Of a stretch of DNA of 16,023 nucleotides, positions 1-14,226 are shown in pieces (position 1 is the stretch's first letter; each line of letters opens with the position of its first letter). The stretch is from Candidatus Hydrogenedentota bacterium (GTDB lineage Bacteria > Hydrogenedentota > Hydrogenedentia > Hydrogenedentales > JAGMZX01), in the NCBI GenBank assembly GCA_029556545.1, contig JAKQEQ010000140.1, positions 1-16,023 on the forward strand, given 5' to 3'. The notes beneath the pieces are model-generated. The model was given only the letters and a program-made list of their open reading frames with translations, ran no database searches and was not told the origin of the DNA. The position numbers were made by a program, and so were the translations under genes.

Positions 1-1241
1 CACGCACGTGGGGATGAACCGTAATTCTTGACGGTTCGGCCTCATACCCCACAGTGTTCCCCACGCACGTGGGGATGAACCGAGAAGCTGGTGAAGGTGG
101 TGGGGCCGAGTCCCGTGTTCCCCACGCACGTGGGGATGAACCGATACGGAATTACGTGCCCTGAGTTATCCTGAGGTGTTCCCCACGCACGTGGGGATGA
201 ACCGTGTTTTGTCTCGACGTTCATTTTCGTGGCGCGGTGTTCCCCACGCACGTGGGGATGAACCGTGTTTCGCCGTGATGATCTGGACCTCGGACCCGTG
301 TTCCCCACGCACGTGGGGATGAACCGCACCATTCAAATTCCGCACCCCCCACTCCTCAGTGTTCCCCACGCACGTGGGGATGAACCGTTCATCGCCTGCT
401 CGAACGGCTCCTTGAACACGTGTTCCCCACGCACGTGGGGATGAACCGCGCACCGTGATGGCCGTCGCTGTCCATGGATCGTGTTCCCCACGCACGTGGG
501 GATGAACCGAAGCTGCTCTTGCCCGCCGCCCCCTTCGCCAAGTGTTCCCCACGCACGTGGGGATGAACCGGCGGACAAGCTCATCGTCTTCGGCTACAAC
601 GCGTGTTCCCCACGCACGTGGGGATGAACCGCGATTGAATGGGCTATCGCCCAGGTCGCCGCGGTGTTCCCCACGCACGTGGGGATGAACCGTGAAGACT
701 TCCCGGCATGGAGGAACGAGACATGTGTTCCCCACGCACGTGGGGATGAACCGCCATGGGCCACATCATCAACATCACGCGCGATGTGTTCCCCACGCAC
801 GTGGGGATGAACCGAATGGAACGAAAAGACTGTATCGTATGGTTACGTGTTCCCCACGCACGTGGGGATGAACCGTAGAGCGCGATCTGCACTCGGACCT
901 TACGCCAGTGTTCCCCACGCACGTGGGGATGAACCGGCGGCGGATGTCGTTCTGCGAGTACACCCCAAGTGTTCCCCACGCACGTGGGGATGAACCGCCT
1001 CCTGAACAGGAGTACGCGCGCGTGGGAATGTGTTCCCCACGCACGTGGGGATGAACCGACCAAGCTCGCGGACTATGCCGCGCCAGCGTTGTGTTCCCCA
1101 CGCACGTGGGGATGAACCGGTTTCACCATTTACCCCATGAATATGAACCCCGTGTTCCCCACGCACGTGGGGATGAACCGCGTTTACAAGCCTCCACTAC
1201 ACCGTGCCCTGCGTGTTCCCCACGCACGTGGGGATGAACCG
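1..1241 (+). CRISPR. Type I-E-like CRISPR array, 20 full repeats plus a partial one
   Basis: The repeat is 29 bp, beginning GTGTTCCCC and ending GGGGATGAACCG, with an 8-bp inverted repeat (TCCCCACG / CGTGGGGA) around a CA centre. Full copies start at 54 and then every 61 bp to 1213 (20 copies). Positions 1-21 are the last 21 bp of a further copy, so the array runs off the left edge. All 20 spacers (22-53, 83-114 and so on to 1181-1212) are exactly 32 bp and mutually different. Repeat length, spacer length and the resemblance to the E. coli repeat (GAGTTCCCC..., 5' handle ATAAACCG, here ATGAACCG) indicate subtype I-E. By that homology the array is transcribed on the plus strand, its leader lies to the left outside the window, and 1241 is the old trailer end. 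Every repeat is identical, including the last. No cas gene is in the window. Confidence 0.98.
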
Positions 1242-1257
1242 CGGATCGACGTGCCGA

Positions 1258-1287
1258 TCGTGTCGGCAAGGCTGGTTGCCGACACGA
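1258..1287. other. Perfect 12-bp hairpin just after the CRISPR array
   Basis: TCGTGTCGGCAA (1258-1269) and TTGCCGACACGA (1276-1287) are exact reverse complements around a 6-nt loop, 17 bp past the last repeat. No T-run follows on either strand, so it is not a classical intrinsic terminator. It could stop or protect the 3' end of the pre-crRNA, or be a leftover of a mobile repeat. The structure is seen directly; the role is unknown. Confidence 0.6.
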
Positions 1288-1299
1288 CTGGCGTGCATA

Positions 1300-1404
1300 G
1301 GCCGGGGGCCGGCGCGTCAGAGCAATATTTTCTGGTGTTGTGGGGTGTTGCGGTGGTGGAGTTTGTGGCGCTTTTTGGGGGGATGGTCGCGCCGGCCCCC
1401 GGCC
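1300..1404. repeat. 17-bp perfect inverted-repeat pair bounding a 105-bp segment
   Basis: GGCCGGGGGCCGGCGCG at 1300-1316 is exactly complementary to CGCGCCGGCCCCCGGCC at 1388-1404. The 71 bp between them have no ORF of note and one strand is T/G-rich. The pair could form a long stem or be the ends of a small non-autonomous element (MITE-like). I see no target-site duplication outside the arms, so the mobile-element reading is only a possibility. Confidence 0.55.
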
Positions 1405-1440
1405 GTTGAGGCGTAGCCGAAAACGGCGGGAGGGAAGGGG

Positions 1441-1531
1441 GAGTGCGGAGTGCGGAGTGCGGAATGCGGAGTGCGGAATGCGGAATGCGGAATGCGGAGT
1501 GCGGAGTGCGGAGTGCGGAGTGCGGAGTGCG
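1441..1531. repeat. Heptanucleotide tandem repeat, 13 copies of GARTGCG
   Basis: Thirteen consecutive 7-bp units, nine GAGTGCG and four GAATGCG, with no interruption. Because 7 is not a multiple of 3, every frame cycles through the same 7-residue peptide, which explains the open but meaningless reading frames across it. The unit variants are ordered (GAG x3, GAA, GAG, GAA x3, GAG x5). The segment lies between the CRISPR array and the end of the isomerase-like gene. Confidence 0.95.
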
Positions 1532-1557
1532 GATCGGGGGCCAGGGCCAGGGTGGGG

Positions 1558-2382
1558 CTAGACGTGGGTGAGGTAGGCTTGTTTGATGCGTTGGAGGAAG
1601 CCGGCCTGGTCCTGTTCCCAGTAGGTGTTGGAGAATATCTCGACTTCGATGTCGCCGCGGAATCCGGTGTGCTCGACCCAGGCGCGGATGGCGGGGATGT
1701 CGATGCAGCCTTCGCCCATGAGCGCGCGGTCGTTGAGGATGTCGCGGGTGGGGGTGCGCCAGTCGCTGACGTGGAAGGAGAAGAGGGAGCGTCCGGCGCG
1801 TTCGATTTCGGATTTGAGGGTGGGGTCCCACCAGAGGTGGTATACGTCGATGGTGACGCCGAGCCAGTCGGAGTTGAGGGCGGTGACCATGTTGTTGGCT
1901 TGTTCGAGGGTGTTTACGGCGGAGCGGGAGTCGGCGTACATGGGGTGGAGGGGCTCGATGGCGAGGCGCACTTTGGCGGTCTGGGCGTGGGGCAGTACGG
2001 CGGCGATGCCGTCGAGTATCTGGCGGCGTTGTTCGGGGAGGGGGATGCCGGGCGTGGCGCCGCATACGAGGACGATGAGGTTCGTGCCGAGGACGACGGC
2101 CTCGTCGATGATGCGGCGGTTTTCGTCTTTGGCGTGTTCGCGGTCTCGGGCGCTGGAGGCGGTGAAGAATCCGCCGCGGCACAGGCTGGTGACGCGGAGC
2201 GCGGAGTCGCGGAGGCGTTTGGCGGCCTCGATGACGCCGTTGTCTTCGTAGTGCATGCGCCAGAGGGTGAGTGCGGGCACGCCGGCGCGGGTGTAGCCGT
2301 CGATGATTTCGGGGAGGGACCAGGGCTTGGTCGTGATGCTGTGGATGCAGAGGCGGGAGCAGTCTGGAAGCGGCGCCGCCAT
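1558..2382 (-). CDS. Sugar phosphate isomerase/epimerase family protein (xylose isomerase-like TIM barrel)
   Basis: 274 aa, matching the usual 260-300 aa of the AP-endonuclease-2/xylose-isomerase-like barrel family. The strand pattern and likely divalent-metal ligands are visible: E143 in LAIEPLHP, D179 and H182 in GVTIDVYHLWWD, H204 in FSFHVSDW, and E248 in DIEVEIFS. No signal peptide is seen, so it is probably cytoplasmic. Relatives isomerise or epimerise sugars, keto-sugars or inositol derivatives; the substrate cannot be read from sequence. The start is the ATG at 2382, which has AAGGAGA 5 nt upstream. An in-frame ATG at 2484 would add 34 Arg/Lys/Pro/Cys-rich residues and lacks support. 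It is the last gene of the leftward run, 173 bp after the tetraheme cytochrome gene with a hairpin between them, so it may be transcribed separately. Confidence 0.9.
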   Translation of the reverse strand: MAAPLPDCSRLCIHSITTKPWSLPEIIDGYTRAGVPALTLWRMHYEDNGVIEAAKRLRDSALRVTSLCRGGFFTASSARDREHAKDENRRIIDEAVVLGTNLIVLVCGATPGIPLPEQRRQILDGIAAVLPHAQTAKVRLAIEPLHPMYADSRSAVNTLEQANNMVTALNSDWLGVTIDVYHLWWDPTLKSEIERAGRSLFSFHVSDWRTPTRDILNDRALMGEGCIDIPAIRAWVEHTGFRGDIEVEIFSNTYWEQDQAGFLQRIKQAYLTHV

Positions 2383-2387
2383 GTCTT

Positions 2388-2394
2388 TCTCCTT
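2388..2394 (-). promoter_or_regulatory. Ribosome binding site deciding the isomerase start
   Basis: Read on the minus strand this is AAGGAGA, 5 nt before the ATG at 2380-2382. It supports the 274-residue product over the longer reading frame that opens at 2484. Confidence 0.75.
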
Positions 2395-2499
2395 CGGTTG
2401 GGACGGGGGCACTCTACGGCGTGAGACGGGCGTGCCGCAAGCGCATGTGGTTTTGCGGGGGCAGGCGCGGTCTTTTTTCACCACGAATCACACGAATAG

Positions 2500-2527
2500 G
2501 AACGCCCGGGACGATGCCCGGGCGTTC
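2500..2527 (-). terminator. Strong GC hairpin after the tetraheme cytochrome gene (possible terminator)
   Basis: GAACGCCCGGG (2500-2510) and CCCGGGCGTTC (2517-2527) form an 11-bp perfect stem with a 6-nt loop, starting 29 bp after the cytochrome stop on the minus strand. There is no U-tract after it on the minus strand, so termination would be non-canonical. It may instead stabilise the mRNA 3' end. The adjacent A/C-rich stretch 2476-2497 (CACCACGAATCACACGAAT) resembles simple interspersed repeats of environmental genomes. Confidence 0.5.
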
Positions 2528-2555
2528 GCATCAACAGGGTGTGTAGGGTATCAGG

Positions 2556-3152
2556 TCATCCCTCGGCGGGACGGCCATGTTTGATCTTTTCCCACGCCTG
2601 TTCGAAGTCGAAGCCGGCTTTGGTTCCGTCCTTGAGGGTATATCGTTCGGTGTTCCAGGTCGGGCTCTGGTCGTTGTGGCATACGATGCAGTCGTTGACG
2701 TCGGGTCGGGTCTGGTTCTTCGTGATGTCGACGTCTTCGCCCTTCTTCTTGCGCTTGCCGTCTTCGAGGTGGAGGGAGGCGGGGCCGTGGCAGGATTCGC
2801 ACTGGACGCCGTCTTTCTTGTCGATGGTGGCGGGGGCCTGGCCGGCTGCGACGTCGAATGCGGTGACGTGGCACCGGAGGCACTCGGGGGCTTCGGCGGG
2901 GGGCTTTTCGAGGCCCTTTTCCTTGCCGATAGCGACGGCTTCGTCGCTGGAGAGGACTTCGAAGGCGCTTGCGTGCTTCATGGCCTTCCAGGCGTTCCAG
3001 ATTTCGCCTTCCTGCTTGCTGTTGTGGCACATCTTGCACTTGCTGTGCCCGACGTAGGTCGCGGGCTCCTGGGCGGTGACGCTGGTGAGTTCGACGACCG
3101 GCAGCAGGATGGCGACGGTCATGATTACGGCCAGAAGGACATTCATCTTCAT
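2556..3152 (-). CDS. Periplasmic tetraheme cytochrome c (cytochrome c554-like family)
   Basis: 198 aa. Residues 1-27 are a signal peptide (hydrophobic stretch about 5-20, likely cleavage after TAQ or nearby). Four CXXCH heme motifs are present: CKMCH 39-43, CLRCH 91-95, CESCH 118-122 and CIVCH 155-159. Spare histidines H36, H60, H127 and H192 could supply distal heme ligands. The spacing, with YVGHSKCKMCH near the start and DGVQCESCHGPASLH in the middle, fits the cytochrome c554-like family, soluble periplasmic electron carriers. The start is ATG 3152; a second ATG two codons later (3146) is equally possible, and the nearest SD-like AGAGGAG is rather far (12 nt). It lies 177 bp downstream of the response regulator on the same strand. 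I infer it carries electrons for, or is controlled by, the adjacent heme-sensing two-component system. A nitrite- or hydroxylamine-linked role is not demonstrated. Confidence 0.9.
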   Translation of the reverse strand: MKMNVLLAVIMTVAILLPVVELTSVTAQEPATYVGHSKCKMCHNSKQEGEIWNAWKAMKHASAFEVLSSDEAVAIGKEKGLEKPPAEAPECLRCHVTAFDVAAGQAPATIDKKDGVQCESCHGPASLHLEDGKRKKKGEDVDITKNQTRPDVNDCIVCHNDQSPTWNTERYTLKDGTKAGFDFEQAWEKIKHGRPAEG

Positions 3153-3329
3153 TTCGCTACGATGCTCCTCTTAATCGCGCCGCTCGGATACCCCTCGCGG
3201 CCCACGCAACCCGACGGATGAAAAAGTCTACTTATTCATCCACAACGTTGTCCAAATGATACCCGTCACGGGGGGCGTGCGCATCCGTAGAAATCCACAA
3301 GACGGCGGGACGCCCTGAAAACGGGGATT
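3153..3329 (-). promoter_or_regulatory. Region upstream of the tetraheme cytochrome with a 10-bp palindrome
   Basis: 177 bp separate the response regulator stop from the cytochrome start. ACAACGTTGT at 3242-3251 is a perfect 10-bp palindrome about 90 bp upstream of the ATG, a plausible operator position. The segment is AT-richer than its surroundings (around 3218-3260), as expected for a promoter. A short inverted repeat CTGAAA/TTTCAG (3315-3320/3328-3333) overlaps the regulator stop. No clear -35/-10 pair stands out. Confidence 0.3.
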
Positions 3330-3980
3330 TCAGTCGAATTTCAGCATACCGTTGTCGATGGCGTAGCGGACGAGGTCGGCGCGGCTCTTGAGGTCGAGCT
3401 TGGCCATGATGTTGGTGCGGTGCGTCTCGACGGTGCGGTCGGAGATATGGAGTTTTTCGGCGACTTCGGCGTTGGTGTGGCCGTAGGCGAGGAGGGTGCA
3501 GACTTCCTTTTCGCGCGGGGTGAGGAGGGCCATGGGGTCCTTGAGGCGGGTGGAGGGCCGCCCGACGTAGGGGGAGACGACGAGTTCGGCGAGTGTGGGG
3601 TCGATATAGACATTCCCGCGGTGGGCGGCGCGGATGGCCTGGACGAGTTCGGATCCGGTGGATTTCTTGAGGACGTAGCCTCGGACGCCAACGCGGAGCA
3701 GTTCCTGGAGGTAGTATTCGTCCTCGTGCATGGTGAGGACGACGATGGAGAGTCCGGGGTGCGCGCGAAGGGCCTCGCGTGCGACGCGCTGGCCGGGCAG
3801 TCCGGGCATGCTGATGTCGAGGAGGAGCACGTCCACCTCTTTCTCGTTCAGGAGGCGGAGGGTGTCGACGCCGGAGCCGGTCTCGCCGACGACCTGGAAT
3901 TCCTCCTCGTGTTCGAGCAGTGCGCGGAGGCCGCTTCGGAAGACGGCGTGATCATCCGCTATGAGCAAGCGTATTCGCAT
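3330..3980 (-). CDS. NarL/FixJ-family response regulator (receiver plus LuxR-type HTH)
   Basis: 216 aa, the normal family length. The N-terminal receiver domain (about 1-120) has the acidic pair D9-D10, the phosphoacceptor D55 in LLLDISMPG, T83 in VVLTMHEDE and K105 in GYVLKK, so all key residues are intact. The C-terminal LuxR/GerE helix-turn-helix (about 150-212) starts LTPREKEV and includes AEVAEKLHISDRTVETH. It should be a phosphorylation-controlled DNA-binding transcription factor in the cytoplasm. Its start ATG lies inside the 3' end of the kinase gene (29-nt overlap, 3952-3980), a strong sign of one transcript and translational coupling, so the kinase is its cognate partner. Likely targets are the divergent heme cytochrome gene and the downstream tetraheme gene, by inference from position. 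Confidence 0.95.
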   Translation of the reverse strand: MRIRLLIADDHAVFRSGLRALLEHEEEFQVVGETGSGVDTLRLLNEKEVDVLLLDISMPGLPGQRVAREALRAHPGLSIVVLTMHEDEYYLQELLRVGVRGYVLKKSTGSELVQAIRAAHRGNVYIDPTLAELVVSPYVGRPSTRLKDPMALLTPREKEVCTLLAYGHTNAEVAEKLHISDRTVETHRTNIMAKLDLKSRADLVRYAIDNGMLKFD

Positions 3981-5559
3981 AAGCCTCCTCGTGTACCGGG
4001 ATGCGGACCCGGACGGTTGTCCCGGCGCCGGGCTTCGAGACGACGGCGAAGTTGCCGCCGACGAGCGCGGCGCGCTCCTCCATGCCGATGAGTCCTAGGG
4101 CCGCGTCTTTGTGCCTCTGGATGGCGCGGAGGTCGAAGCCCTTGCCGTCGTCCTCGACGATCAGGCTGACCTCGTGGTCGTGGCGCATGAGGACGATGCT
4201 GGCCTGGGTGGCCCCGGCGTGCCGGATAACGTTCATGACGGCCTCCTGGGCGATGCGGTATAGGGTCACCTCGATCTCGATGGGGAGGCGTTCGGCGTCC
4301 GAGGGCACGACGCATTGACAATCGATCGGGAGCGCGGCGCGCTTGGACATTTCCTCGACGTAGCGGGCGAGGGCGTGGTCGATACCGTAGTCGTCGAGGA
4401 TCGAGGGCCGGGCGTCCCAAGCGAGGCGTCCGACGTCGTCAATCAGTCCGCGAATCGCCTGCCGGAGCCTGGCGAAACGTTCCGGGGAGGCGGCGCATTC
4501 CTTGGCGAGGGCGTCGACGCTGAGGAGGACGTTCGACAGGTTCTGTCCGAAGTGGTCGTGGAGTTCCCGGGAGATGTTCTTGCGTTCTTCCTCCTGGACT
4601 CGCACGATTTTCCCGAGTAACGAGACGCGGGCCCGGTCCTTTTCGAGGACTTCCTTCTGGTAGTTTTCGAGCCCCTCGGCCATCTGGCTCAGGGCCATGC
4701 TCAGTTTGCCGATTTCATCGCCGGAAAAGACGCGCGCGCGGACGGAGAAATCGCCCTCGCGAATGCGGTTGGTCGCCTGAACGAGGTTGTGGATGGGGCG
4801 CACAATGAGATAGGCGAGGGCGAGGGCAAGCGAGATGCCCAGGACGGTGCATGTGGCGAGGGCGAGGACGATGGAGCGGCTGATGGCGGCGAGTTCGTGG
4901 GCGATAAGGGTATCGCCGACGCCGAGGCGCACGGTGCCGATGGGCTCGGGCCCGATGGTCACGGCGGCCTCGATGATAAGGTGGTCGTCCTTGCGGAATT
5001 CGCGAATCCTGCCTGCCGGCAGGTCGAGGTCGGTCGGGACTTCGAGCAGGCTCGACGCGATCTCCCGGGCGGAGATCGAGGCGTGGCACGTGGCGCAGAG
5101 ATCGCCTCCATGCTCGACAAGGTCCGGGGGGGCCTCCTTCGGGAAGGTGAACCCGTGGGAGAGTATCCGTCCGTCGAGGTCCTGGACCAAAGCATAGCGC
5201 ACATCGGGCACGACCGCCATGGCACGGTCCAATGCAACGTCTATGGCGTCGGTGTCGCCGGAGCGGACATGGGCCTCGACGTTTCGCGCGAGAGAGGTCG
5301 CCACGGACAGGGCCTTGCGACCGTGTATGCGGTAGTGGGTTCGGTAGATGCCGGCTCGGCTTTCGTAGTAGGCCACGCTTCCGAAGAGGACGGTGACGAC
5401 GACGCCGACGCCGAGAATCTTGACGAAGATGGGGACGGAGAAGAGACGCCATAGGATGCGTCTCAACGCGCCTTCCTGGGCCTGGGGCGAATCCACGGCG
5501 TGATCATTCTCCTCGTGCATGGCTGCGTCATGCGTGCTGTCTTGCGATCGGTAATGCAT
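3952..5559 (-). CDS. Membrane sensor histidine kinase (NarX/NreB-type) with a c-heme motif in its sensor domain
   Basis: 535 aa. Layout: cytoplasmic N-terminus, TM1 about 44-64, periplasmic sensor about 65-228, TM2 about 229-253, HAMP about 250-305, coiled-coil about 300-325, HisKA_3 dimerisation domain with phosphoacceptor H334 in RELHDHFGQ, and HATPase about 430-522 (N443, DDGKGFD 470-476, GLIGMEERA 489-497). All catalytic boxes look intact. The sensor contains CATCH at 155-159, a covalent heme c attachment motif, within HGGDLCATCHASI. Cysteines and histidines are otherwise rare there, so a single c-type heme is likely. Heme-bearing periplasmic sensors are known from Geobacter-type bacteria, where they report redox state or small ligands. 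The start ATG 5559 has AGGA 10 nt upstream. The gene overlaps the regulator by 29 nt and is divergent from the 11-heme cytochrome. I infer a redox sensor for the neighbouring electron-transfer genes. Confidence 0.93.
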   Translation of the reverse strand: MHYRSQDSTHDAAMHEENDHAVDSPQAQEGALRRILWRLFSVPIFVKILGVGVVVTVLFGSVAYYESRAGIYRTHYRIHGRKALSVATSLARNVEAHVRSGDTDAIDVALDRAMAVVPDVRYALVQDLDGRILSHGFTFPKEAPPDLVEHGGDLCATCHASISAREIASSLLEVPTDLDLPAGRIREFRKDDHLIIEAAVTIGPEPIGTVRLGVGDTLIAHELAAISRSIVLALATCTVLGISLALALAYLIVRPIHNLVQATNRIREGDFSVRARVFSGDEIGKLSMALSQMAEGLENYQKEVLEKDRARVSLLGKIVRVQEEERKNISRELHDHFGQNLSNVLLSVDALAKECAASPERFARLRQAIRGLIDDVGRLAWDARPSILDDYGIDHALARYVEEMSKRAALPIDCQCVVPSDAERLPIEIEVTLYRIAQEAVMNVIRHAGATQASIVLMRHDHEVSLIVEDDGKGFDLRAIQRHKDAALGLIGMEERAALVGGNFAVVSKPGAGTTVRVRIPVHEEAYANTLAHSG

Positions 5560-5804
5560 TGGTTTGGTGTCCTACAGCCGGGCACCGCCGGCCATCATAA
5601 CAAAAGAAATCCGCGAAAAACACGTGGGCGACTCGCGGGAGCTTGTCCCCCGTAACGTATACACGGCTTTTCCATGGTTCGACTTCAGGGAAAAACACGG
5701 ACTGGCCGCGGTGAGTTCCCCTTTTTACGGATGCGAAGGGCGGATGGCGAGGGTATGCTTCAGCGCATTCTTATTCCGCAATGAGACTTCAGGAGACTCG
5801 ATAC
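5560..5804. promoter_or_regulatory. Divergent intergenic region between heme-sensor kinase and 11-heme cytochrome
   Basis: About 245 bp must hold both promoters. A 10-bp direct repeat GAAAAACACG occurs at 5615-5624 and 5690-5699, 75 bp apart, each in a locally A-rich patch. Around 5650-5666, CCGT-(N9)-ACGG is an imperfect dyad centred on GTATAC. GGTATGCT near 5753 is a weak -10-like match for the rightward gene. These are candidate binding sites for the response regulator; none is proven. Confidence 0.35.
5791..5795 (+). promoter_or_regulatory. Ribosome binding site favouring a GTG start for the 11-heme cytochrome
   Basis: AGGAG at 5791-5795 lies 9 nt before an in-frame GTG (5805-5807). The earlier in-frame ATG at 5781 has no Shine-Dalgarno-like sequence in front of it, and the AGGAG would fall inside its coding region. 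Confidence 0.55.
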
Positions 5805-7739
5805 GTGGAACGCGAGCGACGGCGCACAGTGTATTTTGGCCTCGTTCTTGCGGTGGCCATTGCGTCGCCGCTTGCGGCGCAAGAGGACCAGGACTGTTTC
5901 TTCTGTCATAACGATGCGGACCTGACCCGTGAACTTGAGGATGGCACGCTGCAGTCGCTTTATATCAGCGAGCCGCTTTTCAAGGCTTCCGTTCACGGCG
6001 AACAGGGGTGTGTGTCGTGTCACACGGACATCACGGATCTGCCGCATGAGGCGCGATTGGCGCCGGTGGATTGCGGGAACTGCCACGAGGAGGCGAGCGC
6101 TTATGCAAAGACGCCTCACGGCCAGTTACTGGCCCAAGACGACGGGGACGTGAGCGGGTGCGGCGACTGCCACGGGACGCATGACATTCGGGCGGTGAGC
6201 GACCCGCTGTCCCACGTGCATCCGACGAATCAGCCGCGCACGTGCGGCAAGTGCCACTCCGACCCGGGACTGGTGAAGTCCCACATGATTTCCGTGGCGA
6301 ATCCTTCCGAGAAATACATGAAGAGCGTGCACGCGCGCGCTATCTTTGAAAAGGATAACCTCGACGCGGCGAGTTGCACCAATTGTCACGGCGCGCACGA
6401 CCTGCTTCCGTCGCAGGACCCGTCCTCGAAGGTCTATCGGCGCAATATCGCAGACACGTGCGGCGCGTGCCATCCGCGGGAGCGCGAGGAATTCGAGCAG
6501 AGCATTCACGGCAAGGCGTTGACGGCGGGGATACGATTCGCGCCGACGTGCATCGACTGCCACGGCGAGCACGGGATCGAGGCGCCGAGCGAGCGCACGT
6601 CGAGCGTGAATCGCCAGCAAGTCGCCCGGTCCACGTGCCCGCGCTGTCACGACGATGAGCGTATCATGACGCGGTTCGGCATCGAGACCATGCGGCAGGC
6701 CAGCTACATGGACAGCTACCACGGCTTGGCGAGCGCGGCGGGATCGGAAGTGGTCGCGAGTTGCACCAGTTGCCACGGGACGCACCTGATCCTGCCGCAC
6801 CTGGACCCGGCGTCGTCGACGCACGTGTCGAATCTGCCGCAAACCTGCGGGCAGTGTCACGCGAACGCGAACCCGAACTTCGCCGTGGGGGCGGTGCATA
6901 TCATGCCGACCAATCCGGGGCAGAAGGCGCTGGGGCTGGTGCGGCTGGCGTACCTCGTGCTGATCGTGGGGGTGGTCGGGGGGATGGTCTTCCACAACAC
7001 GATCATGATGGGCCGGCACGCGCTGCGGAAGTTCAAGCAGGAGTTGGGCGGCGAGGGGACGTATCGGCGGTTCAGCACGGGGCTAACCATCGGCCACATG
7101 GTGCTGACGATCGCGTTTATCGCGCTTGCCGTGTCGGGCTTTGCCTTGCGCTACCCCGAGACGTGGTGGGCTCGCGCGATCTTCCCCGGGGAGGCGGGAC
7201 TGGCGGCGCGGGGTGTGGTGCATCGCATCGCGGCGGTGGTGCTGGTCGGCATCGCGGTGAGCAACGCGATCTATCTGCTGCTTACAGGGGGCGGGCGACG
7301 CGAACTCGGCGCGCTCTGGTTCCGCATCAAGGACTTGAAAGACGTGTTCATGAATATGGGCTATGCCTTCGGGCTGGTGAAGCGGGAGCCGCGATTCGAC
7401 CGCTACAGTTACATCGAGAAGTTCGAGTACTGGGGCATGTGGTGGGGCACGCTGCTGATGATCGTCACCGGGTTCTGCATGTGGTTCGCGAACACGTTCC
7501 TCGACCTGTTGCCGAAGATCGCGCTCGATGTTGTCGCGCTGGTGCACTTCTACGAGGCGTGGCTCGCGGTCCTGACCATCATTATCTGGCACCTCTACTA
7601 TATGATCTTCGACCCCCACACCTACCCGATGAACTGGTCCTGGATCACCGGGCACATCACGGACGAGGACTTCAAGGCGCGGCATCCGCTCGAATATGAG
7701 CGCGTCGTGCGGGAGCGGGAGGAAGGGAGGGGGGAGTAG
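5805..7739 (+). CDS. Undecaheme cytochrome c fused to a membrane cytochrome b (CbcL-like quinol oxidase)
   Basis: 644 aa from the GTG start (652 aa from ATG 5781). A signal peptide ends near LAAQ (residue 26). Eleven CXXCH motifs follow, with first Cys at about 31, 69, 90, 119, 147, 191, 219, 249, 278, 320 and 348, many in CHGxH settings. About five TM helices then come at 379-400, 427-448, 469-493, 541-562 and 575-602. Histidines H397, H431, H473, H581 and H596 in or next to helices are candidate b-heme ligands, resembling the HydC/FdnI cytochrome b561 group. The multiheme-c plus cytochrome-b fusion recalls Geobacter CbcL, which takes electrons from menaquinol and hands them to periplasmic cytochromes. 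I infer the same direction here, possibly feeding the tetraheme protein or extracellular acceptors. It is divergent from the c-heme kinase. Acceptor and direction are not decidable from sequence. Confidence 0.92.
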   Translation: MERERRRTVYFGLVLAVAIASPLAAQEDQDCFFCHNDADLTRELEDGTLQSLYISEPLFKASVHGEQGCVSCHTDITDLPHEARLAPVDCGNCHEEASAYAKTPHGQLLAQDDGDVSGCGDCHGTHDIRAVSDPLSHVHPTNQPRTCGKCHSDPGLVKSHMISVANPSEKYMKSVHARAIFEKDNLDAASCTNCHGAHDLLPSQDPSSKVYRRNIADTCGACHPREREEFEQSIHGKALTAGIRFAPTCIDCHGEHGIEAPSERTSSVNRQQVARSTCPRCHDDERIMTRFGIETMRQASYMDSYHGLASAAGSEVVASCTSCHGTHLILPHLDPASSTHVSNLPQTCGQCHANANPNFAVGAVHIMPTNPGQKALGLVRLAYLVLIVGVVGGMVFHNTIMMGRHALRKFKQELGGEGTYRRFSTGLTIGHMVLTIAFIALAVSGFALRYPETWWARAIFPGEAGLAARGVVHRIAAVVLVGIAVSNAIYLLLTGGGRRELGALWFRIKDLKDVFMNMGYAFGLVKREPRFDRYSYIEKFEYWGMWWGTLLMIVTGFCMWFANTFLDLLPKIALDVVALVHFYEAWLAVLTIIIWHLYYMIFDPHTYPMNWSWITGHITDEDFKARHPLEYERVVREREEGRGE

Positions 7740-7782
7740 GGACTAGGGATCAGGGACTAGGGATCAGGAATCACGGACCAGG
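7739..7782. repeat. 14-bp tandem repeat right after the cytochrome stop codon
   Basis: GGGACTAGGGATCA occurs at 7739-7752 and exactly again at 7753-7766, followed by a decayed copy (GGAATCACGGACCA, 7767-7780). The first copy begins at the last base of the stop codon. No hairpin terminator is visible here. The remaining gap up to 7901 holds a -10-like box and nothing else I can support. Confidence 0.8.
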
Positions 7783-7862
7783 GGTGGGTGTCCGTGCGGT
7801 TCATACGGTCCGTGCTTCGAGCTCGCGCGAGGGGGGCGTGTTTCTCTCCCGGCGCTTGGCAA

Positions 7863-7875
7863 GGTATACTGCCGT
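7863..7875 (+). promoter_or_regulatory. Candidate -10 element upstream of the sulfatase-like gene
   Basis: GGTATACTGCCGT contains TATACT (7865-7870), 31 bp before the ATG at 7902. No good -35 is seen 16-18 bp upstream. The same 13-bp block with one change recurs before the BFN gene at 13521-13533, which is the main reason to list it. Confidence 0.3.
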
Positions 7876-7901
7876 GGAACCTGGGGCGGCGAGGGTGTTG
7901 C

Positions 7902-9362
7902 ATGGGTACACTTACACGCAGACGTTTCTTGGCGCATTCGACGGCGGCCGGAGTCGGCGCGGTTGTCGGCGCGGGGTGTGGCCGCGCTTCGGAGGATACG
8001 CCCGGAGCGGAGGCCGGCCGCGTCGTGGCTGAGGAGGCCGTCGCCGGGGAGAGTCCCGGTTCGCGACCGCCGCACATCGTGTTGATCATGCTCGATACGC
8101 TGCGGGCGGACAAGCTGGGCTGCTATGGCTATCCGCACGATACGTCGCCCGCGCTGGATGCGCTTGCGGCGCGGGGGGTGGTGTTCGAGCGGGCCGTGGC
8201 CCAGTGCAGTTGGACCCGGCCGTCGGTCGGATCGCTGCTGACGTCCCGATATGCGCGCGACCTCGGGCTGTATGTCGAGCATAACGAAATCCTGAACAGC
8301 CGGTTCGAGACCATCGGGACGCTGCTGAAGCAGCACGGTTACACGACCTTCGGCGCGACCGCCAACCCGAATATGAATCGGAGTTACAATTTCCATCTCG
8401 GCTTTGACGAGTATATCGAGAGCGCCGTGGTGTTCAGTTGGATGGAGGAGGCCCATGACGACAACGTGCGCGGGCGCGTCTCGCTGCCGTCCGCGCCGCG
8501 GCTGTACGAGCAGACGCTCGATTTCGCGCGGCGTCATCCGCAAGGTCCGTGCTATGTTCAACTGAACCTCATGGAAATCCACGAATGGTACGTGCGTGAC
8601 AACTATACCCTGCGGCGCCCCGAGTACCAGGGCCTTTTTCTGGACGTCGGCGAGCGGTACCCGAAGTACCTGCAATCGGTGCGGCAATTGACGGACGACA
8701 CGGCGGGGTTCATGGAAGCGTTGAGCGGGCTTGCCGGTTGGGAGGATACGCTGTTCGTCATCCTGAGCGACCACGGCGAGGGACTCGATGACCACCCCGG
8801 CATCGCCAAATCGCTTTATCACGGCTGGCTGCTGTACGAGTCCCAGGTTGTCGTGCCGTGGATACTGTATCGGCCCGGCTGGACGCCGGCGCAGCCGCGG
8901 ATAGCCCAGCCCGTGCGCCTGCTCGAACTCTTGCCGACGGTGCTGGATTTCGCGGGCGCGCCGATTCCGGAAGACATCGCGGGCGTGTCGCTGAAGCCGC
9001 TGGTCGAGGGCCGGGTCGCGTCGGCGGCGTTGCCCGAATACTTCATCACCGAGACCGACTTTCGCGGCGCGAGCAAGGTGGGCGCGTACGCGGCGGCGTG
9101 GAAATACTTCAATAATATCGCGCCGCACGCGGGATTGCCGCCCCATGAATTGCAGGCGCGCGGCGGTCGCGAGCAGGGCCTTCGCACGAATCAGTCGCGG
9201 CGCCGGGCGGAAGACATGGAACCGCTGCGGGCCTACGTCGAGGCGTGGATGCGGGAGCATCCGAAGACGCCGCCGACGCCGCAGTTGCAGGCGTTGTCCG
9301 AGGAGGAGCGACGGCAGTTGGAGGCCATAGGTTACCTGGGCGACGAGGAGGAGACGCCGTAG
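7902..9362 (+). CDS. Sulfatase-superfamily lipoprotein with Thr at the formylglycine position
   Basis: 486 aa. The N-terminus has a twin-arginine motif TRRRFLAHS (5-13), a short hydrophobic stretch and the lipobox-like GAGC (C26), so a Tat-exported lipoprotein is likely. The alkaline-phosphatase/sulfatase fold is shown by IMLDTLRAD (D65, metal), CSWTRPSVGSLLTSR (102-116), SDHGE (D290-H291, metal) and the C-terminal QLEAIGYLG typical of the family. Aligning PSVGSLLTSR with the sulfatase CxPSRxxLLTGR signature puts Thr105 at the nucleophile position and Val109 instead of Arg. Canonical sulfatase activity is therefore doubtful; phosphotransferase or phosphodiesterase relatives use Thr there. The start ATG 7902 has GAGGGT about 8 nt upstream; an ATG at 7788 would bury the Tat signal 38 residues in. 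Downstream come two membrane glycosyltransferases, suggesting work on a cell-envelope glycan. Confidence 0.88.
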   Translation: MGTLTRRRFLAHSTAAGVGAVVGAGCGRASEDTPGAEAGRVVAEEAVAGESPGSRPPHIVLIMLDTLRADKLGCYGYPHDTSPALDALAARGVVFERAVAQCSWTRPSVGSLLTSRYARDLGLYVEHNEILNSRFETIGTLLKQHGYTTFGATANPNMNRSYNFHLGFDEYIESAVVFSWMEEAHDDNVRGRVSLPSAPRLYEQTLDFARRHPQGPCYVQLNLMEIHEWYVRDNYTLRRPEYQGLFLDVGERYPKYLQSVRQLTDDTAGFMEALSGLAGWEDTLFVILSDHGEGLDDHPGIAKSLYHGWLLYESQVVVPWILYRPGWTPAQPRIAQPVRLLELLPTVLDFAGAPIPEDIAGVSLKPLVEGRVASAALPEYFITETDFRGASKVGAYAAAWKYFNNIAPHAGLPPHELQARGGREQGLRTNQSRRRAEDMEPLRAYVEAWMREHPKTPPTPQLQALSEEERRQLEAIGYLGDEEETP

Positions 9363-9377
9363 CGTGGCGGGGCGAGG

Positions 9378-9476
9378 GAGCGAGTACGAGTGCGAGTACG
9401 AGGAGAAGAAGAACGATTACGATTACGATTACGATTACGAGGACGAGCACGAGGACGAGTAGGAGGACGAGTAGGA
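9378..9476. repeat. Purine-rich hexanucleotide-type repeat tract
   Basis: The tract is built of near-6-bp units: CGAGTA/CGAGTG units at 9380-9400, four exact CGATTA units at 9414-9437, then CGAGGA/CGAGCA/CGAGTA units to about 9474. It starts about 20 bp after the sulfatase stop. Open frames across it on both strands are by-products of the period of 6. It fills most of the 170-bp gap before the first GT-C gene. Confidence 0.85.
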
Positions 9477-9489
9477 ATGGCGACGCTGG

Positions 9490-9518
9490 TTGTTGAATCG
9501 GCTGCAAAAGTGTTTAAT
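9490..9518 (+). promoter_or_regulatory. Candidate promoter for the first GT-C gene
   Basis: TTGTTG (9490-9495), a 17-bp spacer and TTTAAT (9513-9518) in a locally AT-rich stretch, 14 nt before the ATG at 9533. This position would give a very short leader, in line with the lack of a clear Shine-Dalgarno site. The -35 matches the consensus only in TTG. Confidence 0.3.
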
Positions 9519-9532
9519 ATTTCTCTGGATAT

Positions 9533-11272
9533 ATGATGAGTCAATCGCACGGCACATGGTACGGGCGCTTCTTGGGCGGCTTTCTGCTGGTGATATTCCT
9601 GGCGGGGCTGATGACGGTCGCGGTGCGGGCGTCGTGGCTGTGCGATGACGCCTATATCACGTTTCGGACGGTGGACAACGTGGTGAAAGGCCACGGCCCG
9701 CGGTGGAACGTCGAGGAGCGCGTGCAGGCTTACACGCATCCGTTGTGGATGCTGTTGTTGTCGGCGGTATACGTGTTCACGCGCGAGGTTTTTGTCACGG
9801 CGCAGATGGTGGGGCTCATACTGACGCTTGCCGTGGCGCTGTTGCTTGCGCTGGTCGTCGCGCGGACGCCCGCCGCGGCGCTGGCGGCGCTGGCCGCGCT
9901 TGGGCTGTCGAAGGCGTTCATCGAGTACAGCACCTCGGGACTGGAGAATCCGCTGACGCACCTGCTGCTCGTGAGTTTTCTCGCGCTTTTTTTCAGTGAT
10001 CGGCCCGATGCGCGCAAGGTGTTGCCGCTGTCGCTGTTGGCGGGGCTTGCCGCGCTCACGCGGATGGATACGCTGTTGATCTACCTGCCCGCGCTGATTT
10101 TTCTGATCGTGAAGGCGCGGTCGGCGCGCGCCTGTGTCTACATGGCGTGCGGGTTCCTCCCTTTCGCGGCGTGGGAAGCGTTTTCGGTGATCTACTACGG
10201 CTTTCCTTTTCCAAACACGGCTTACGCGAAACTGAGCACGGGCGTTCCCGCGGCGGACCTGGCGCGGCAGGGCCTCGCCTATTTCATCAGCCAGGCGGAT
10301 ATCGACCCGTTGACCCTGGCCGTGGCGCTTTGCGGGTTGGCGCTGCCGTTCGCGCTGCGCGAATGGCGCGCGATCATGCCCGCGCTCGGCGCGGTCCTGT
10401 ATCTGGTCTACGTGGTGCGCATCGGCGGCGACTTCATGGTCGGGCGGTACTTCACGGCCCCGATGCTCGTGGCGGCGGTGCTGTTGGCGCGGGCGCCGAT
10501 GCGATTCGGTCACGCCTTCACCTCGATCATGGTCCTCGGGTTGCTTTGTTTCATGGGGCGGTATCCCATCGTGCTCACCGACGCGGAGTACGGTCTCGAT
10601 CGGCTGTCGCAGCCCGGGAACGCCTTCCGGGACGAGCGGGGCGTGAGCGATCAGCGCGGGTTCTACTACCACGCGACGGGGCTGCTGCGGGGCCCGCAAA
10701 ACGGCTGGGAGGCGAAACACGAATGGGTCGAGACGGGCCGGATGCTGCGGGCGAAGGGGAAGAACGTGTCCGCTTACGGGGCGACGGGTTTCAAGGGCTA
10801 TTACGCGGGGCCGGACGCTTACATCGTCGATTATCATGCGCTGTCGGACCCGCTGCTGGCGCGGTTGCCGGGGAACGACCTCGTGAGGTGGCATATCGGC
10901 CACTTCAAGCGCGATATCCCGGCGGGGTATCTCGCGGTGCTGCGCGGCGAAAAGGAAGCGCTTGACGACCCGGACCTCCAGGCGTTCTTGGGAAAGTTGT
11001 TCATCATTACGCGCGGTCCGGTGTGGAGTCGCGAGCGACTGCGGGCTATCTGGGAGATGAACCGCGGCCGATATGACGGGCTGATCGCGATGTACGCCGC
11101 GCAACGGGCGGCCAACGCGGAGCCGGCCCGCAGGGACATCCTCCTGCCCCCGTGGACGGGACGGCCTGCGGCGTCGGAGGTGCGTGCCGAGGAAGATAGC
11201 GAGACAGGGGAAGGAGACAACGACGAACCCGAGCCGGAAACCGGGACTGAATCGGAGCCGGATCATGGGTGA
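9533..11272 (+). CDS. GT-C-type membrane glycosyltransferase (AftB/ZomB-like)
   Basis: 579 aa. About ten hydrophobic segments lie within residues 12-345, followed by a soluble C-terminal domain (about 350-545) and an acidic tail (552-579). The first extracytoplasmic loop carries WLCDDAYIT (35-43) with the Asp pair D38-D39 typical of GT-C enzymes, then ERVQAYTHPLW (62-72), as in actinobacterial arabinofuranosyltransferase AftB and ZomB-like proteins. Other family blocks are TRMDT 176-180, YYGFPFPNT 221-229, VVRIGGDFM 294-302 and GYYAGP 422-427 with DPLLARLP. Such enzymes move a sugar from a polyprenyl-phosphate donor to a surface glycan; donor and acceptor are unknown here. An ATG one codon later (9536) is an equal start. 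Its stop overlaps the next gene by 8 nt, and the two proteins are paralogues. The acidic tail is absent from the paralogue. Confidence 0.85.
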   Translation: MMSQSHGTWYGRFLGGFLLVIFLAGLMTVAVRASWLCDDAYITFRTVDNVVKGHGPRWNVEERVQAYTHPLWMLLLSAVYVFTREVFVTAQMVGLILTLAVALLLALVVARTPAAALAALAALGLSKAFIEYSTSGLENPLTHLLLVSFLALFFSDRPDARKVLPLSLLAGLAALTRMDTLLIYLPALIFLIVKARSARACVYMACGFLPFAAWEAFSVIYYGFPFPNTAYAKLSTGVPAADLARQGLAYFISQADIDPLTLAVALCGLALPFALREWRAIMPALGAVLYLVYVVRIGGDFMVGRYFTAPMLVAAVLLARAPMRFGHAFTSIMVLGLLCFMGRYPIVLTDAEYGLDRLSQPGNAFRDERGVSDQRGFYYHATGLLRGPQNGWEAKHEWVETGRMLRAKGKNVSAYGATGFKGYYAGPDAYIVDYHALSDPLLARLPGNDLVRWHIGHFKRDIPAGYLAVLRGEKEALDDPDLQAFLGKLFIITRGPVWSRERLRAIWEMNRGRYDGLIAMYAAQRAANAEPARRDILLPPWTGRPAASEVRAEEDSETGEGDNDEPEPETGTESEPDHG

Positions 11273-13490
11273 TCCTCAGGGAAAGAGTCCGGCGGACCGC
11301 GTGGTCATCGCGCTGGCGCTGGCGTTGCTGGCGCTGGTGCTCGTGCGGACGGCGTGGCTGTGCGACGACGCCTATATTACCCTGCGCGTCGTGGACAACC
11401 TCGTCGATGGCCACGGGCTGACGTGGAACGTCGGCGAGCGCGTCCAGACCTACACGCACCCTTTGTGGCTGTTTCTCCTGGCCGCGCCTTACTATCTCAC
11501 CCGCGAGCATTTTCTGACGACCATCGGCGTCTCGATGCTGGTCAGCCTGTTGGCCGCCGCCGTGCTGGCGGGCCGGGTTGCGCGGGCGACGGGCACGGGG
11601 CTGCTGGCCGTGGCGCTGCTCGTGTTCTCGCGCGCTTTCGTGGATTACAGTTCTTCCGGCCTCGAAAACCCGCTGACGCATCTTCTGCTCGTGCTGTTTT
11701 TCGCGGTGCTGTTTCACGGGCAGGCGCGGGCCCGCAACGTACTCGCGCTTGCCTTGCTTGCGGCGCTGGGCGCGCTGAATCGCATCGACACGCTGCCGCT
11801 CTACGCGCCGGGACTCGTGGCGGCATGGTGGCGCGCGAGAAAAGGCGGCGGGACTTGGCCCGCTTTCCGGGCGACGGCGGCGCTGGCGTGCGGCATGCTG
11901 CCGCTGATCGCGTGGGAAGTCTTCTCGCTGGTCTACTACGGGTTCCCGTTTCCGAACACCTTCTACGCGAAGCTCGGTGCGGGCATCTCGTCGTCTGACC
12001 TGGTCACGCAGGGCTTGCATTACGTGGAGAACTGCTGGCGGCGCGACCCGCTGACCCTCGGCGTCATGGCGGCGGGCATGTTGGCGGCCTTGCTGCGCGG
12101 GAGCGGGGCGGCCCTGGCGGGCGCGTTCGGGATCGCGATCTATCTTCTCTACGTGGTCCGCATCGGCGGGGATTTCATGGCCGGGCGGTTTTTCTCCGCG
12201 CCGTTCGTCTGCGGCGTGGCGCTGCTGACGGGCTGGACCGATGCGGAACGCGCGCGGACGGCGGCCCTCGCGCGCGGGATTGCGTCGCGGTTCGTGGAGG
12301 CCGTTCCCCGGCTCGCGTGGGCGCCGCTGGTGATCCTCGTGGCGTGGATCGGCCTGGGCATGCCGGGCCGGCCCGAGAGCGACAGGCCGGCAGCGCGCGC
12401 GACGGAGGCCGTCGTGGACGATGCCTGGGCGTCGCCGACGCCGACGGTGTTCTCCGACTCGCGCCACGGGAAGACCTTGGCCGGTTTCAAGGACGGGCAC
12501 GGCATCGGCGACGAGCGGCTGTTCTACTTCGCCAACGCCGGGCTGTTGCGGTATCGCCGGAACGCGGAGTTGCCCATGATCGGATTCGCGACCGAGGGGC
12601 GGCGCTACCGGCTTCTGGACCGGCCCGCGACGTATGTTCACGGCAGCGTCGGGTTTCGGGGCTACTTCGCGGGGCCGAAGGCGCATATCATCGACTACTA
12701 CGCGCTTACCGATCCGCTGCTGGCGCGGCTGCCGGCGGTGTACAGCCCGAACTGGCGCGTCGGCCACTTCGTGCGCAACGTTCCGCCGGGCTACGTGGAC
12801 ACCGAACAGGCGCTGCACACGCGGTCCGTCGATTTCGGGGACCCGGAACCGATCATCGCGGGGCCGCCGTGGCGCTGGCCGATCTGGCGCGCGCTCGCTT
12901 GTGGCACGGGCGTCTCGCCCGTGGTTTATGGGCAGGATGCCGATGCCACGGCGTTCGCGTTCGACGGGAACGAAATCGAGGATATGCGGCTTGCCGCATA
13001 CTACGACCAGCTTATTTTGATCACGCGTGGGCCGATCTTGGCACGGGAGCGGTGGCGCGCCATCTGGCGGATGAACACGGGCCGGTACGACCACCTCATC
13101 GACCAGGACGCCTATCGTTATCCCGGTATCCGCCGCGTCGTGGCGGATGAACTGCCGCGGTTCGAGGCCGCCGAGAATGACTGGAAAATCGCGGCGGGCG
13201 TTGCCTTCACGCAACGGGGGATCGAGGTCGCACTCGGGGAGACGCGCCGCGAGCGCGGCATCGAGATTGCGCTCGACGGCAACGATAAGTACCGTATCCT
13301 CGTGGTCGGCGACGACGGCGTTCTGGTCGTGCGCGACGTGGGCCCTTCGGCGCAGGCGTCTCGGGCATGGGCCGTGTACGAAGTCGCGCTGCCGGAACGC
13401 GTGGCCGCGCGCGGGTATGCCGCGTTGCGGGTATTTCCCGTGGGAGGCGACCGGCGTTATCGCCTGGGTTGGGTGCGTCCGGCGGAGTAG
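11265..13490 (+). CDS. Second GT-C-type membrane glycosyltransferase, with C-terminal extension
   Basis: 741 aa, a paralogue of the upstream protein. Shared blocks: WLCDDAYIT (31-39; Asp pair 34-35), ERVQTYTHPLW (58-68), NRIDT (172-176), YYGFPFPNT (224-232), VVRIGGDFM (297-305), GYFAGP (466-471), DPLLARLP and ITRGPI with RERWRAIWRMN. Differences: about 50 extra residues around 515-570 and a C-terminal domain (about 615-741) with alternating strands that I do not recognise, possibly a beta-sandwich. Part of the extra segment (546-562) is coded by a palindromic interspersed repeat. The start ATG 11265 overlaps the end of the upstream gene (ATGGGTGA, 8 nt) and has GGAG 7 nt upstream. An in-frame ATG at 11184 would overlap the neighbour much more and add a charged leader, so I reject it. 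The tight overlap indicates co-translation and perhaps a common pathway or heterodimer. Confidence 0.85.
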   Translation: MGDPQGKSPADRVVIALALALLALVLVRTAWLCDDAYITLRVVDNLVDGHGLTWNVGERVQTYTHPLWLFLLAAPYYLTREHFLTTIGVSMLVSLLAAAVLAGRVARATGTGLLAVALLVFSRAFVDYSSSGLENPLTHLLLVLFFAVLFHGQARARNVLALALLAALGALNRIDTLPLYAPGLVAAWWRARKGGGTWPAFRATAALACGMLPLIAWEVFSLVYYGFPFPNTFYAKLGAGISSSDLVTQGLHYVENCWRRDPLTLGVMAAGMLAALLRGSGAALAGAFGIAIYLLYVVRIGGDFMAGRFFSAPFVCGVALLTGWTDAERARTAALARGIASRFVEAVPRLAWAPLVILVAWIGLGMPGRPESDRPAARATEAVVDDAWASPTPTVFSDSRHGKTLAGFKDGHGIGDERLFYFANAGLLRYRRNAELPMIGFATEGRRYRLLDRPATYVHGSVGFRGYFAGPKAHIIDYYALTDPLLARLPAVYSPNWRVGHFVRNVPPGYVDTEQALHTRSVDFGDPEPIIAGPPWRWPIWRALACGTGVSPVVYGQDADATAFAFDGNEIEDMRLAAYYDQLILITRGPILARERWRAIWRMNTGRYDHLIDQDAYRYPGIRRVVADELPRFEAAENDWKIAAGVAFTQRGIEVALGETRRERGIEIALDGNDKYRILVVGDDGVLVVRDVGPSAQASRAWAVYEVALPERVAARGYAALRVFPVGGDRRYRLGWVRPAE
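12901..12949. repeat. Palindromic interspersed repeat (REP/MITE-like) inside the GT-C coding sequence
   Basis: The outer stem is GTGGCA (12901-12906) with TGCCAC (12944-12949). Overlapping and inside it is hairpin CACGGGCG-TCT-CGCCCGTG (12905-12923), then a second imperfect hairpin ATGGGCA-GGA-TGCCGAT (12928-12944). The whole can fold as a cloverleaf-like structure. The sequence matches a widespread repeat type of Planctomycetes/Verrucomicrobia-like genomes as I remember it, usually seen in annotations as peptides such as NHGRDARAT on the other strand. It is read in frame here as GTGVSPVVYGQDADAT without disrupting the gene. Confidence 0.75.
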
Positions 13491-13522
13491 CGCAGGGCGC
13501 GCGCCGGGTGCGCGTCGCGCGG

Positions 13523-13528
13523 TATAAT
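13523..13528 (+). promoter_or_regulatory. Consensus -10 box (TATAAT) upstream of the BFN gene
   Basis: TATAAT sits in GGTATAATGCCGT (13521-13533), nearly the same block as at 7863-7875. It is 20 bp from the ATG at 13548. An earlier in-frame ATG (13527) overlaps this box, another reason to prefer the later start. No good -35 is visible. Confidence 0.45.
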
Positions 13529-13535
13529 GCCGTAT

Positions 13536-13541
13536 AAGGAG
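13536..13541 (+). promoter_or_regulatory. Ribosome binding site fixing the BFN gene start
   Basis: AAGGAG, 6 nt before ATG 13548. It is a perfect Shine-Dalgarno core at ideal spacing and excludes the in-frame ATG at 13527. Confidence 0.85.
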
Positions 13542-13547
13542 TTTGTC

Positions 13548-14018
13548 ATGGTCGAGCTCGAACTGTTGGGCGTCAGCCAGTCGCCGGAACAGCACCATCC
13601 GCTGGTGCTCCTGCGGCATGAAAACCGCGTGCTGCCGATCCTCGTGGGCCTGCCCGAGGCCCGGGCCATCCAGGCCGGACTCATGGAGGAAAAGCCGCCG
13701 CGGCCGATGACCCACGACCTGATCCGCAACGTGCTCGCCGGGCTGCGCGGCGAGGTGCGGTCGGTCACCATCTACAAGCTCGAAAACGACACCTTCTACG
13801 CGCACCTGAACGTCGAGCAGAAGAACGCGGCGGGACTGGTCGAGCAGGTGCTCCGCATCGACTCGCGCCCGAGCGACGGCATCGCCATCGCCGTGCGGGT
13901 GAACTGCCCGATCCTCGCGTCGGAGGAGGTCATGGAAATAGCCGGGCAGGACGCCTCGATCCTCGGCGGTCCCGAGGACGAGGACGACGAGGACGAGGAC
14001 AGCGATTTCGATTCGTAG
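13548..14018 (+). CDS. Bifunctional nuclease (BFN/DUF151) domain protein
   Basis: 156 aa, the typical size of stand-alone BFN-domain proteins. The domain spans about 1-135 and shows the family blocks LPILVGLPEARAI (29-41), RPMTHDLIRNVL (52-63), VTIYKLENDTFYAHL (73-87) and the signature RIDSRPSDGIAIAVR (103-117). Plant and Thermotoga relatives have been linked to nuclease activity or solved as structures, but the cellular role in bacteria is unsettled. No signal peptide or membrane segment is seen, so it is cytoplasmic. The C-terminus ends in a strongly acidic tail, PEDEDDEDEDSDFDS (142-156), which could mediate binding to a basic partner. It follows the GT-C gene by 57 bp with its own -10-like box and a strong RBS, so it may be transcribed both from upstream and independently. 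Identification is firm; function is not. Confidence 0.92.
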   Translation: MVELELLGVSQSPEQHHPLVLLRHENRVLPILVGLPEARAIQAGLMEEKPPRPMTHDLIRNVLAGLRGEVRSVTIYKLENDTFYAHLNVEQKNAAGLVEQVLRIDSRPSDGIAIAVRVNCPILASEEVMEIAGQDASILGGPEDEDDEDEDSDFDS

Positions 14019-14226
14019 CGCGGGGGAGGCGGGCCGAGGGGACTGAAAGGGATTAAAAGGACGGAAAGGACCAAAAGGAAGCAGAGGCGGTTTGCGGGCC
14101 GAACCGCGTTGCAGCTATGACGGATTCAGCGGCGTGTCGCCCGGCACCGCACCGTCCCTTCTCCTTGGTCCTTTACGTCGTCTTGGTCTCTTTGGTCTTT
14201 TTCCCGCTCGTCCGCGCATATCCGGG
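14019..14226. repeat. Convergent intergenic gap with facing purine-rich and pyrimidine-rich tracts
   Basis: No gene is seen in these 208 bp. A plus-strand purine tract (about 14036-14084: GGGACTGAAAGG, GGATTAAAAGGA, GGACCAAAAGGA units) faces a pyrimidine tract (about 14153-14211: TCCTTGGTCCTTT, TCTTTGGTC units). AAAGGACCAA (14065-14074) and TTGGTCCTTT (14165-14174) are exact complements, so a large stem-loop is possible. Lying between two converging stops, it may act as a two-way transcription stop. Confidence 0.6.

Follow-up and report, generated by a model that had tools for sequence, protein, structure and literature searches.

Does a heme-bearing sensor kinase that stands among multiheme cytochromes form a closed module with them, or does it belong to a larger respiratory system, and what does it sense and control? 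The question is raised by four neighbouring genes in the window, i.e. the whole stretch of 16,023 nucleotides analysed here (Candidatus Hydrogenedentota, an uncultured phylum; assembly GCA_029556545.1, contig JAKQEQ010000140.1, positions 1-16,023 of the forward strand; genome coded G000, contig G000:C148). The comparison set comprised 60 genomes of the order, with a wider set of 68. The preferred answer, for which the chances are about even, is that a periplasmic heme-redox kinase controls an extracellular electron transfer (EET) regulon through its NarL-type regulator and a short DNA box.

Translation and profile scans confirmed the four genes proposed by an earlier, sequence-only reading. 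The tetraheme c554-like periplasmic cytochrome P0001 (2556-3152, minus strand; 198 aa) carries four CXXCH motifs, i.e. four hemes, and scores 62.6 bits against the Cytochrome_C554 profile (PF13435, cut-off 20.8). Beside it stand the NarL/LuxR-type response regulator P0002 (3330-3980, minus strand), with Response_reg and LuxR/GerE domains above cut-offs, and the sensor histidine kinase P0003 (3952-5559, minus strand; 535 aa), with two transmembrane helices, HAMP, HisKA_3 (histidine H334) and HATPase_c. The reading frames of kinase and regulator overlap by 29 bp, the four Pfam domains that define them as a NarL-type two-component pair are all above cut-offs, and the regulator adjoins the kinase in the neighbourhoods read. 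The fourth gene, P0004 (5781-7739, plus strand; 652 aa), is transcribed divergently from the kinase and encodes a fusion of an 11-heme cytochrome c with a b561-type cytochrome b.

The rest of the window holds a CRISPR-like array at 1-1245, with repeats of about 29 bp (GTGTTCCCCACGCACGTGGGGATGAACCG) and regular spacers, that runs off the left end of the contig and beside which no cas genes were identified within the window. Short tandem repeats of the GGAGTGCGGAATGC type lie between this array and the next gene (1441-1533). Beyond the fusion, at 7902-16023, stand genes for a TAT-signal sulfatase, glycosyltransferase-like membrane proteins and a WD40 repeat protein that look unrelated.

The sensor domain of the kinase and its heme motif

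The kinase contains a single CXXCH motif (CATCH, residues 155-159) that is flanked by two hydrophobic helices and invariant across the aligned kinase orthologues. An AlphaFold2 model of the region between the transmembrane helices (about residues 66-222; 4894..5364, minus strand) predicts a periplasmic CitA-like Cache domain that encloses the motif. Its mean pLDDT of 72 indicates moderate confidence, weakest in the insert described below. The best structural match is CitA 2v9a (Z 11.7, 1.8 A over 98 residues), the top matches are CitA chains with Z of 10.5-11.7, and Foldseek gave an E of 7.5e-4 for 2j80. Weak matches to the sCache_3_2 profile were found in 4 of 11 sensor domains (best E 0.0014), the window member being without a match. 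In the numbering of the model (40 lower than that of the kinase), strands span 80-87 and 92-97, the CXXCH stands at 115-119, and further strands follow at 147-150, 153-161 and 168-176. The motif is thus predicted to lie between strands 2 and 3 with three strands after it, confidence in the insert itself being low. Most likely, P0003 is a sensor with heme c in the periplasm, its scaffold being a Cache domain of the CitA type to which the heme would be covalently attached; the window genome also encodes a CcsB-type heme-attachment gene.

The motif belongs to an insert of about 24 residues (about residues 147-170; 5050..5121, minus strand) that is absent from heme-less sister kinases. In an alignment, the heme-less relatives at L095-L097 have the same scaffold and are some 24 residues shorter exactly at this place, and the sensor profile matches the heme-less sisters of G007 and G033, two genomes that carry both forms, in two pieces flanking the insert. 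The heme-less sister kinases with their regulator (L095:7254-10373, L096:3919-6993 and L097:586-3705) are preceded by a gene whose predicted product is a PhnD-like binding protein, and at L095 several multiheme genes lie directly upstream. The kinase trees cluster the heme kinases with modest support and require few changes (by the count made, 2 per tree), and a constraint holding all heme kinases together was not rejected (p-AU 0.09), so that a single gain of the heme motif is favoured rather than established by these sequences. One row labelled heme-less, L094, proved to be a contig-edge fragment without sensor and was left out of the second tree. A limited test, a genome scan with two short peptide patterns, found relatives in this phylum only, and those of the kinase that have a name are MAGs of Candidatus Hydrogenedentota. 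A search of plasmids gave no relative of the sensor.

Heme-bearing Cache domains are already known as the sCache_heme family (DUF3365/Tll0287, PF11845), represented by GSU0582, GSU0935 and a P. azotoformans protein (preprint PMC12889525). The window kinase resembles them in its periplasmic Cache fold, its motif for covalent c-heme, here with predicted attachment, and its fusion to transmembrane, HAMP and kinase parts. It differs in sequence, since neither P0003 nor any of the 11 sensor domains matched PF11845 at E up to 10 and since a profile-profile comparison found only the CXXCH in common. It also differs in its CitA-like scaffold with heme-less sisters, and in the modelled position of its insert, between strands 2 and 3, whereas the heme loop of PF11845 lies directly before the last beta strand (PMC12889525). 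The fold search returned no PF11845-type structure among the matches listed, which excludes nothing. PF11845 proteins are absent from the window genome, and true members are present in 15 of the 60 relatives. The position of the insert together with the missing PF11845 match suggests a second acquisition of c-type heme.

The same family supplies the main rival for the signal, namely that the kinase is a gas sensor whose periplasmic heme binds NO or another diatomic gas, the pair then switching the cytochromes on nitrogen-oxide conditions. The closest characterised signalling domains do bind NO: the signalling-type heme-c Cache protein of P. azotoformans binds it tightly, while stand-alone ones look redox-like (PMC12889525). 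A conserved histidine of the sensor, H135 (SHGF), is no more than a possible distal ligand of such a heme; most heme-less sisters have it as well. Nevertheless, the sensor falls outside the NO-binding family by profile and by insert position, and the neighbours of the kinase are EET-type cytochromes, among which no nitrogen-oxide gene caught the eye in a reading of the neighbourhoods for other purposes; gas sensing is held to be unlikely, though with a real share of probability, beside the preferred redox reading.

The electron transfer genes and the predicted box

Homologues of the tetraheme cytochrome, present in 32 of the 60 genomes at the search cut-off, lie mostly inside EET-type clusters. 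The recurrent cluster comprises an MtrA/DmsE-like cytochrome (6-8 hemes), a barrel-like protein, a 14-heme cytochrome, the tetraheme, ResB/CcsB maturation proteins, an OmcA/MtrC decaheme and an NrfH-like pentaheme. The decaheme of the same-genus genome G001 scores 462 bits (cut-off 209.3) and the window genome protein is 72% identical to it. The MtrA-like protein, with 6-8 CXXCH, reaches 52.9 bits and remains below the MtrA/DmsE cut-off of 192.2, and the barrel-like protein has no match to a Pfam or NCBIfam family. MtrC directly follows the tetraheme in G001; the window genome has it, like the barrel operon, the NrfH-like gene and CcsB, on other contigs. By gene content, the tetraheme belongs to an order-wide set predicted to serve Mtr-like EET. 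In the literature searched, no description of EET potential in Hydrogenedentota was found.

The fusion combines an N-terminal multiheme c part with a C-terminal b-type membrane domain containing hydrophobic segments (Ni_hydr_CYTB, PF01292, 50.8 bits against 30.1). Its 11 CXXCH are all invariant in 18 eleven-heme proteins, in which distal and membrane histidines are also conserved. Because of this invariance in homologues, the CXXCH motifs of the fusion, like that of the kinase, are not due to chance. A 19-heme paralogue of about 930 aa adjoins the 11-heme fusion in many genomes of the order, outside the window genus (L101:9859-12627, with similar genes in L104-L108 and L110-L115).

The sequence-only reading had named the intervals 5560-5804 and 3153-3329 as places in which to map binding of the regulator. 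When the two intergenic regions of the window were compared by eye with G001, a common TACGGATG-type sequence was seen. The box, TTTNYMCGGATG, is present in both regions, as TTTCTACGGATG at 3282..3293 (minus strand) upstream of the tetraheme gene, in a form common to the fusion and other EET promoters, and as TTTTTACGGATG at 5722..5733 (plus strand) upstream of the fusion, in the divergent kinase/fusion interval. On other contigs it precedes the MtrC, porin-operon and NrfH-like genes, and in both G000 and G001 it stands gene-oriented before MtrC, the MtrA-like operon and the NrfH-like gene. Its idea of regulation is partly borne out in that a shared box occupies both intervals; the link between box and regulator is a putative one, drawn from their co-occurrence. 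When the sites are aligned, a -10-like TATNNT appears some 20 bp downstream of the box and a weaker repeat some 33 bp upstream of it, a layout that activator sites would be expected to have. The divergent interval also contains a direct repeat, G(C/G)GAAAAACACG, at 5613-5624 and 5688-5699, the first copy of which is kept in G001.

A relaxed pattern gave 25 matches in the window genome, seven of them before EET genes or a 4-heme/FeS operon divergent from the MtrA-like operon. This divergent region (L206:10752-12465, G000:C32) encodes an FeS protein and one with 4 CXXCH, and the box is oriented towards their genes. One site on G000:C33, before the cytochrome-maturation operon, was dropped as it lies inside coding sequence.

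A matrix built from G000 and G001 alone was then applied to the other families, with the 99th percentile of the background as threshold. It matched 17 of 61 promoter-proximal EET genes in other kinase-bearing genomes and 1 of 47 in kinase-lacking ones (Fisher p = 2e-4), the two groups being phylogenetically non-independent. Matches were rare among operon-internal EET genes (0/48 kinase-bearing, 1/32 kinase-lacking) and control promoter-proximal genes (3/220), and column-permuted matrices gave a mean of 0.9 and a maximum of 3 matches on the same 61 genes. In kinase-bearing genomes the box precedes nine of the ten tetrahemes with their own promoter and all five FeS heads (5/5). It is absent from G002, G007 and G033, whose heme kinases are divergent, and from G018, which has a kinase fragment; the kinase-lacking G039, which has the box, carries a heme-less homologue of the kinase/regulator pair. 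Genome-wide box counts were rejected as a test for being not specific, as they exceed a reversed-pattern control in many kinase-lacking genomes too. Motif discovery over all orthologue promoters was also discarded, since what it returned were coding signals from multiheme genes lying upstream instead of operators.

For the box, the chief rival explanation is a different regulator: box and cytochrome regulon could be under its control, or the box could be an extended promoter element, the kinase pair controlling something else as a mere neighbour. The box-kinase association is correlative, the promoter of the kinase itself is without box in all ten other genomes tested, and several genomes have no cytochrome near the kinase. 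Against this, the box is split by kinase presence in the counts above, and in nine genomes (G000, G001, G015, G016, G021, G049, G054, G055 and G056) it precedes the gene that comes right after the regulator. Control by a different regulator is judged improbable, and the kinase-regulator pair is preferred as the controller of the box.

Gene neighbourhoods across the order

Heme-sensor kinases were found in 13 of the 60 genomes, with a fourteenth, in G060, from the wider set, and the 11-heme fusion in 19 of the 60. The tetraheme comes directly after the kinase-regulator pair in G000, G001, G016 and G056, and in G054 as an edge fragment, while FeS-NrfD-13-heme genes take this place in G015, G049 and G055, and in G021, which is cut by the contig end. 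Together these arrangements cover nine genomes of families f1, f4, f9 and f10. The fusion lies elsewhere in 17 of the 19 genomes that bear it; in kinase-bearing genomes outside the genus it is on a different contig or, in G016, some 16 kb off. With the kinase near respiratory genes in four families and the fusion elsewhere, what recurs is the kinase-regulator pair with genes for respiratory cytochromes or the NrfD complex, and not the set of four.

The tie of the c-heme pair to multiheme genes, as drawn by the sequence-only reading, holds beyond the window genome: of 14 kinases, 8 have genes with at least four CXXCH within 6 kb, whereas no such gene lies in any of 16 control regions of the same order (p = 5e-4, a value that ignores phylogeny). 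One intended control, L162, is itself a tetraheme cluster and was excluded from this background. The exact set of four genes that had been put forward is, among the genomes compared, adjacent in G000 and the same-genus G001 only, and the linkage of all four, expected in related genomes, breaks outside the genus. That they make up a self-contained sensor-plus-output module is highly improbable and largely refuted by this comparison: in its favour are the order kept in two same-genus genomes, the box in both intergenic regions and the presence of the fusion in 11 of the 13 kinase genomes against 19 of 60 overall (counts that ignore phylogeny), but the four genes are non-adjacent in every other genome examined, the MtrC, porin-operon and NrfH-like parts are on other contigs of the window genome, and, outside the genus, the search found no box ahead of the 11-heme fusion. 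The four neighbours appear to be a local piece of a larger respiratory system in a genus-level arrangement, and not a closed unit.

Proposed mechanism, known systems and significance

In the proposed heme-redox mechanism, the redox state of the periplasmic cytochrome pool would be read through the covalently bound heme of the kinase, which may sample electrons from this pool. A change in heme redox state would alter the Cache domain, and the kinase would phosphorylate its NarL-type partner. The phosphorylated regulator would bind TTTNYMCGGATG-type boxes about 20 bp upstream of the -10-like element and presumably activate the genes behind them. General targets would be the tetraheme c554 and, where present, the FeS-NrfD-13-heme complex; in the window genus, MtrC, the MtrA-like/porin/14-heme operon, the NrfH-like pentaheme and the CbcL-like fusion would be added, these cytochromes making up the presumed electron route.

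Several parts of this system have known counterparts. P0003 shares its modelled periplasmic fold (Z 11.7) with CitA/DcuS-type sCache_3 kinases, and the pair shares its HisKA_3 kinase and LuxR-type regulator with NarX/NarL pairs; it differs from both in joining a CitA-like sensor to a HisKA_3 kinase and in adding a c-heme insert. The fusion is placed by family description with CbcL/MtrH/MtoC, inner-membrane quinol oxidases/quinone reductases with 3-23 hemes (PMC6295460), for it has an N-terminal multiheme c part and a C-terminal HydC/FdnI-like cytochrome b. It differs in having 11 hemes versus 9 in G. sulfurreducens CbcL, and in that 11-heme fusions of the order, unlike those of the window genus, are often paired with the 19-heme paralogue. 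In the same way, the cluster resembles the Mtr conduit in uniting an OmcA/MtrC decaheme above cut-off, an MtrA/DmsE-like cytochrome and a barrel-like protein, whereas its MtrA-like and barrel proteins are below or without family cut-offs, and its extra 14-heme, tetraheme and NrfH-like parts are scattered over contigs in the window genus. The fusion and the NarL-type pair are each of an already known kind, the new parts being the sensor variant and the predicted regulon.

A broader reading, held tentatively at slightly short of even chances for its two halves jointly, is that a second, independent origin of c-heme Cache sensors took place within Hydrogenedentota at a new site, between strands 2 and 3 of a CitA-type domain, and that this heme sensor today feeds a two-component switch dedicated to an EET regulon with its own operator. 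If the heme insert was independently acquired, the heme-less relatives would allow a direct experiment on how sensor domains gain a cofactor. How the state of an extracellular respiratory chain is sensed is poorly known, and the present analysis puts forward a candidate for such a sensor, with heme in the periplasm, together with its partner regulator, a defined DNA box and the genes that would be its targets. Finally, the genes described here point to a potential for EET in Hydrogenedentota.
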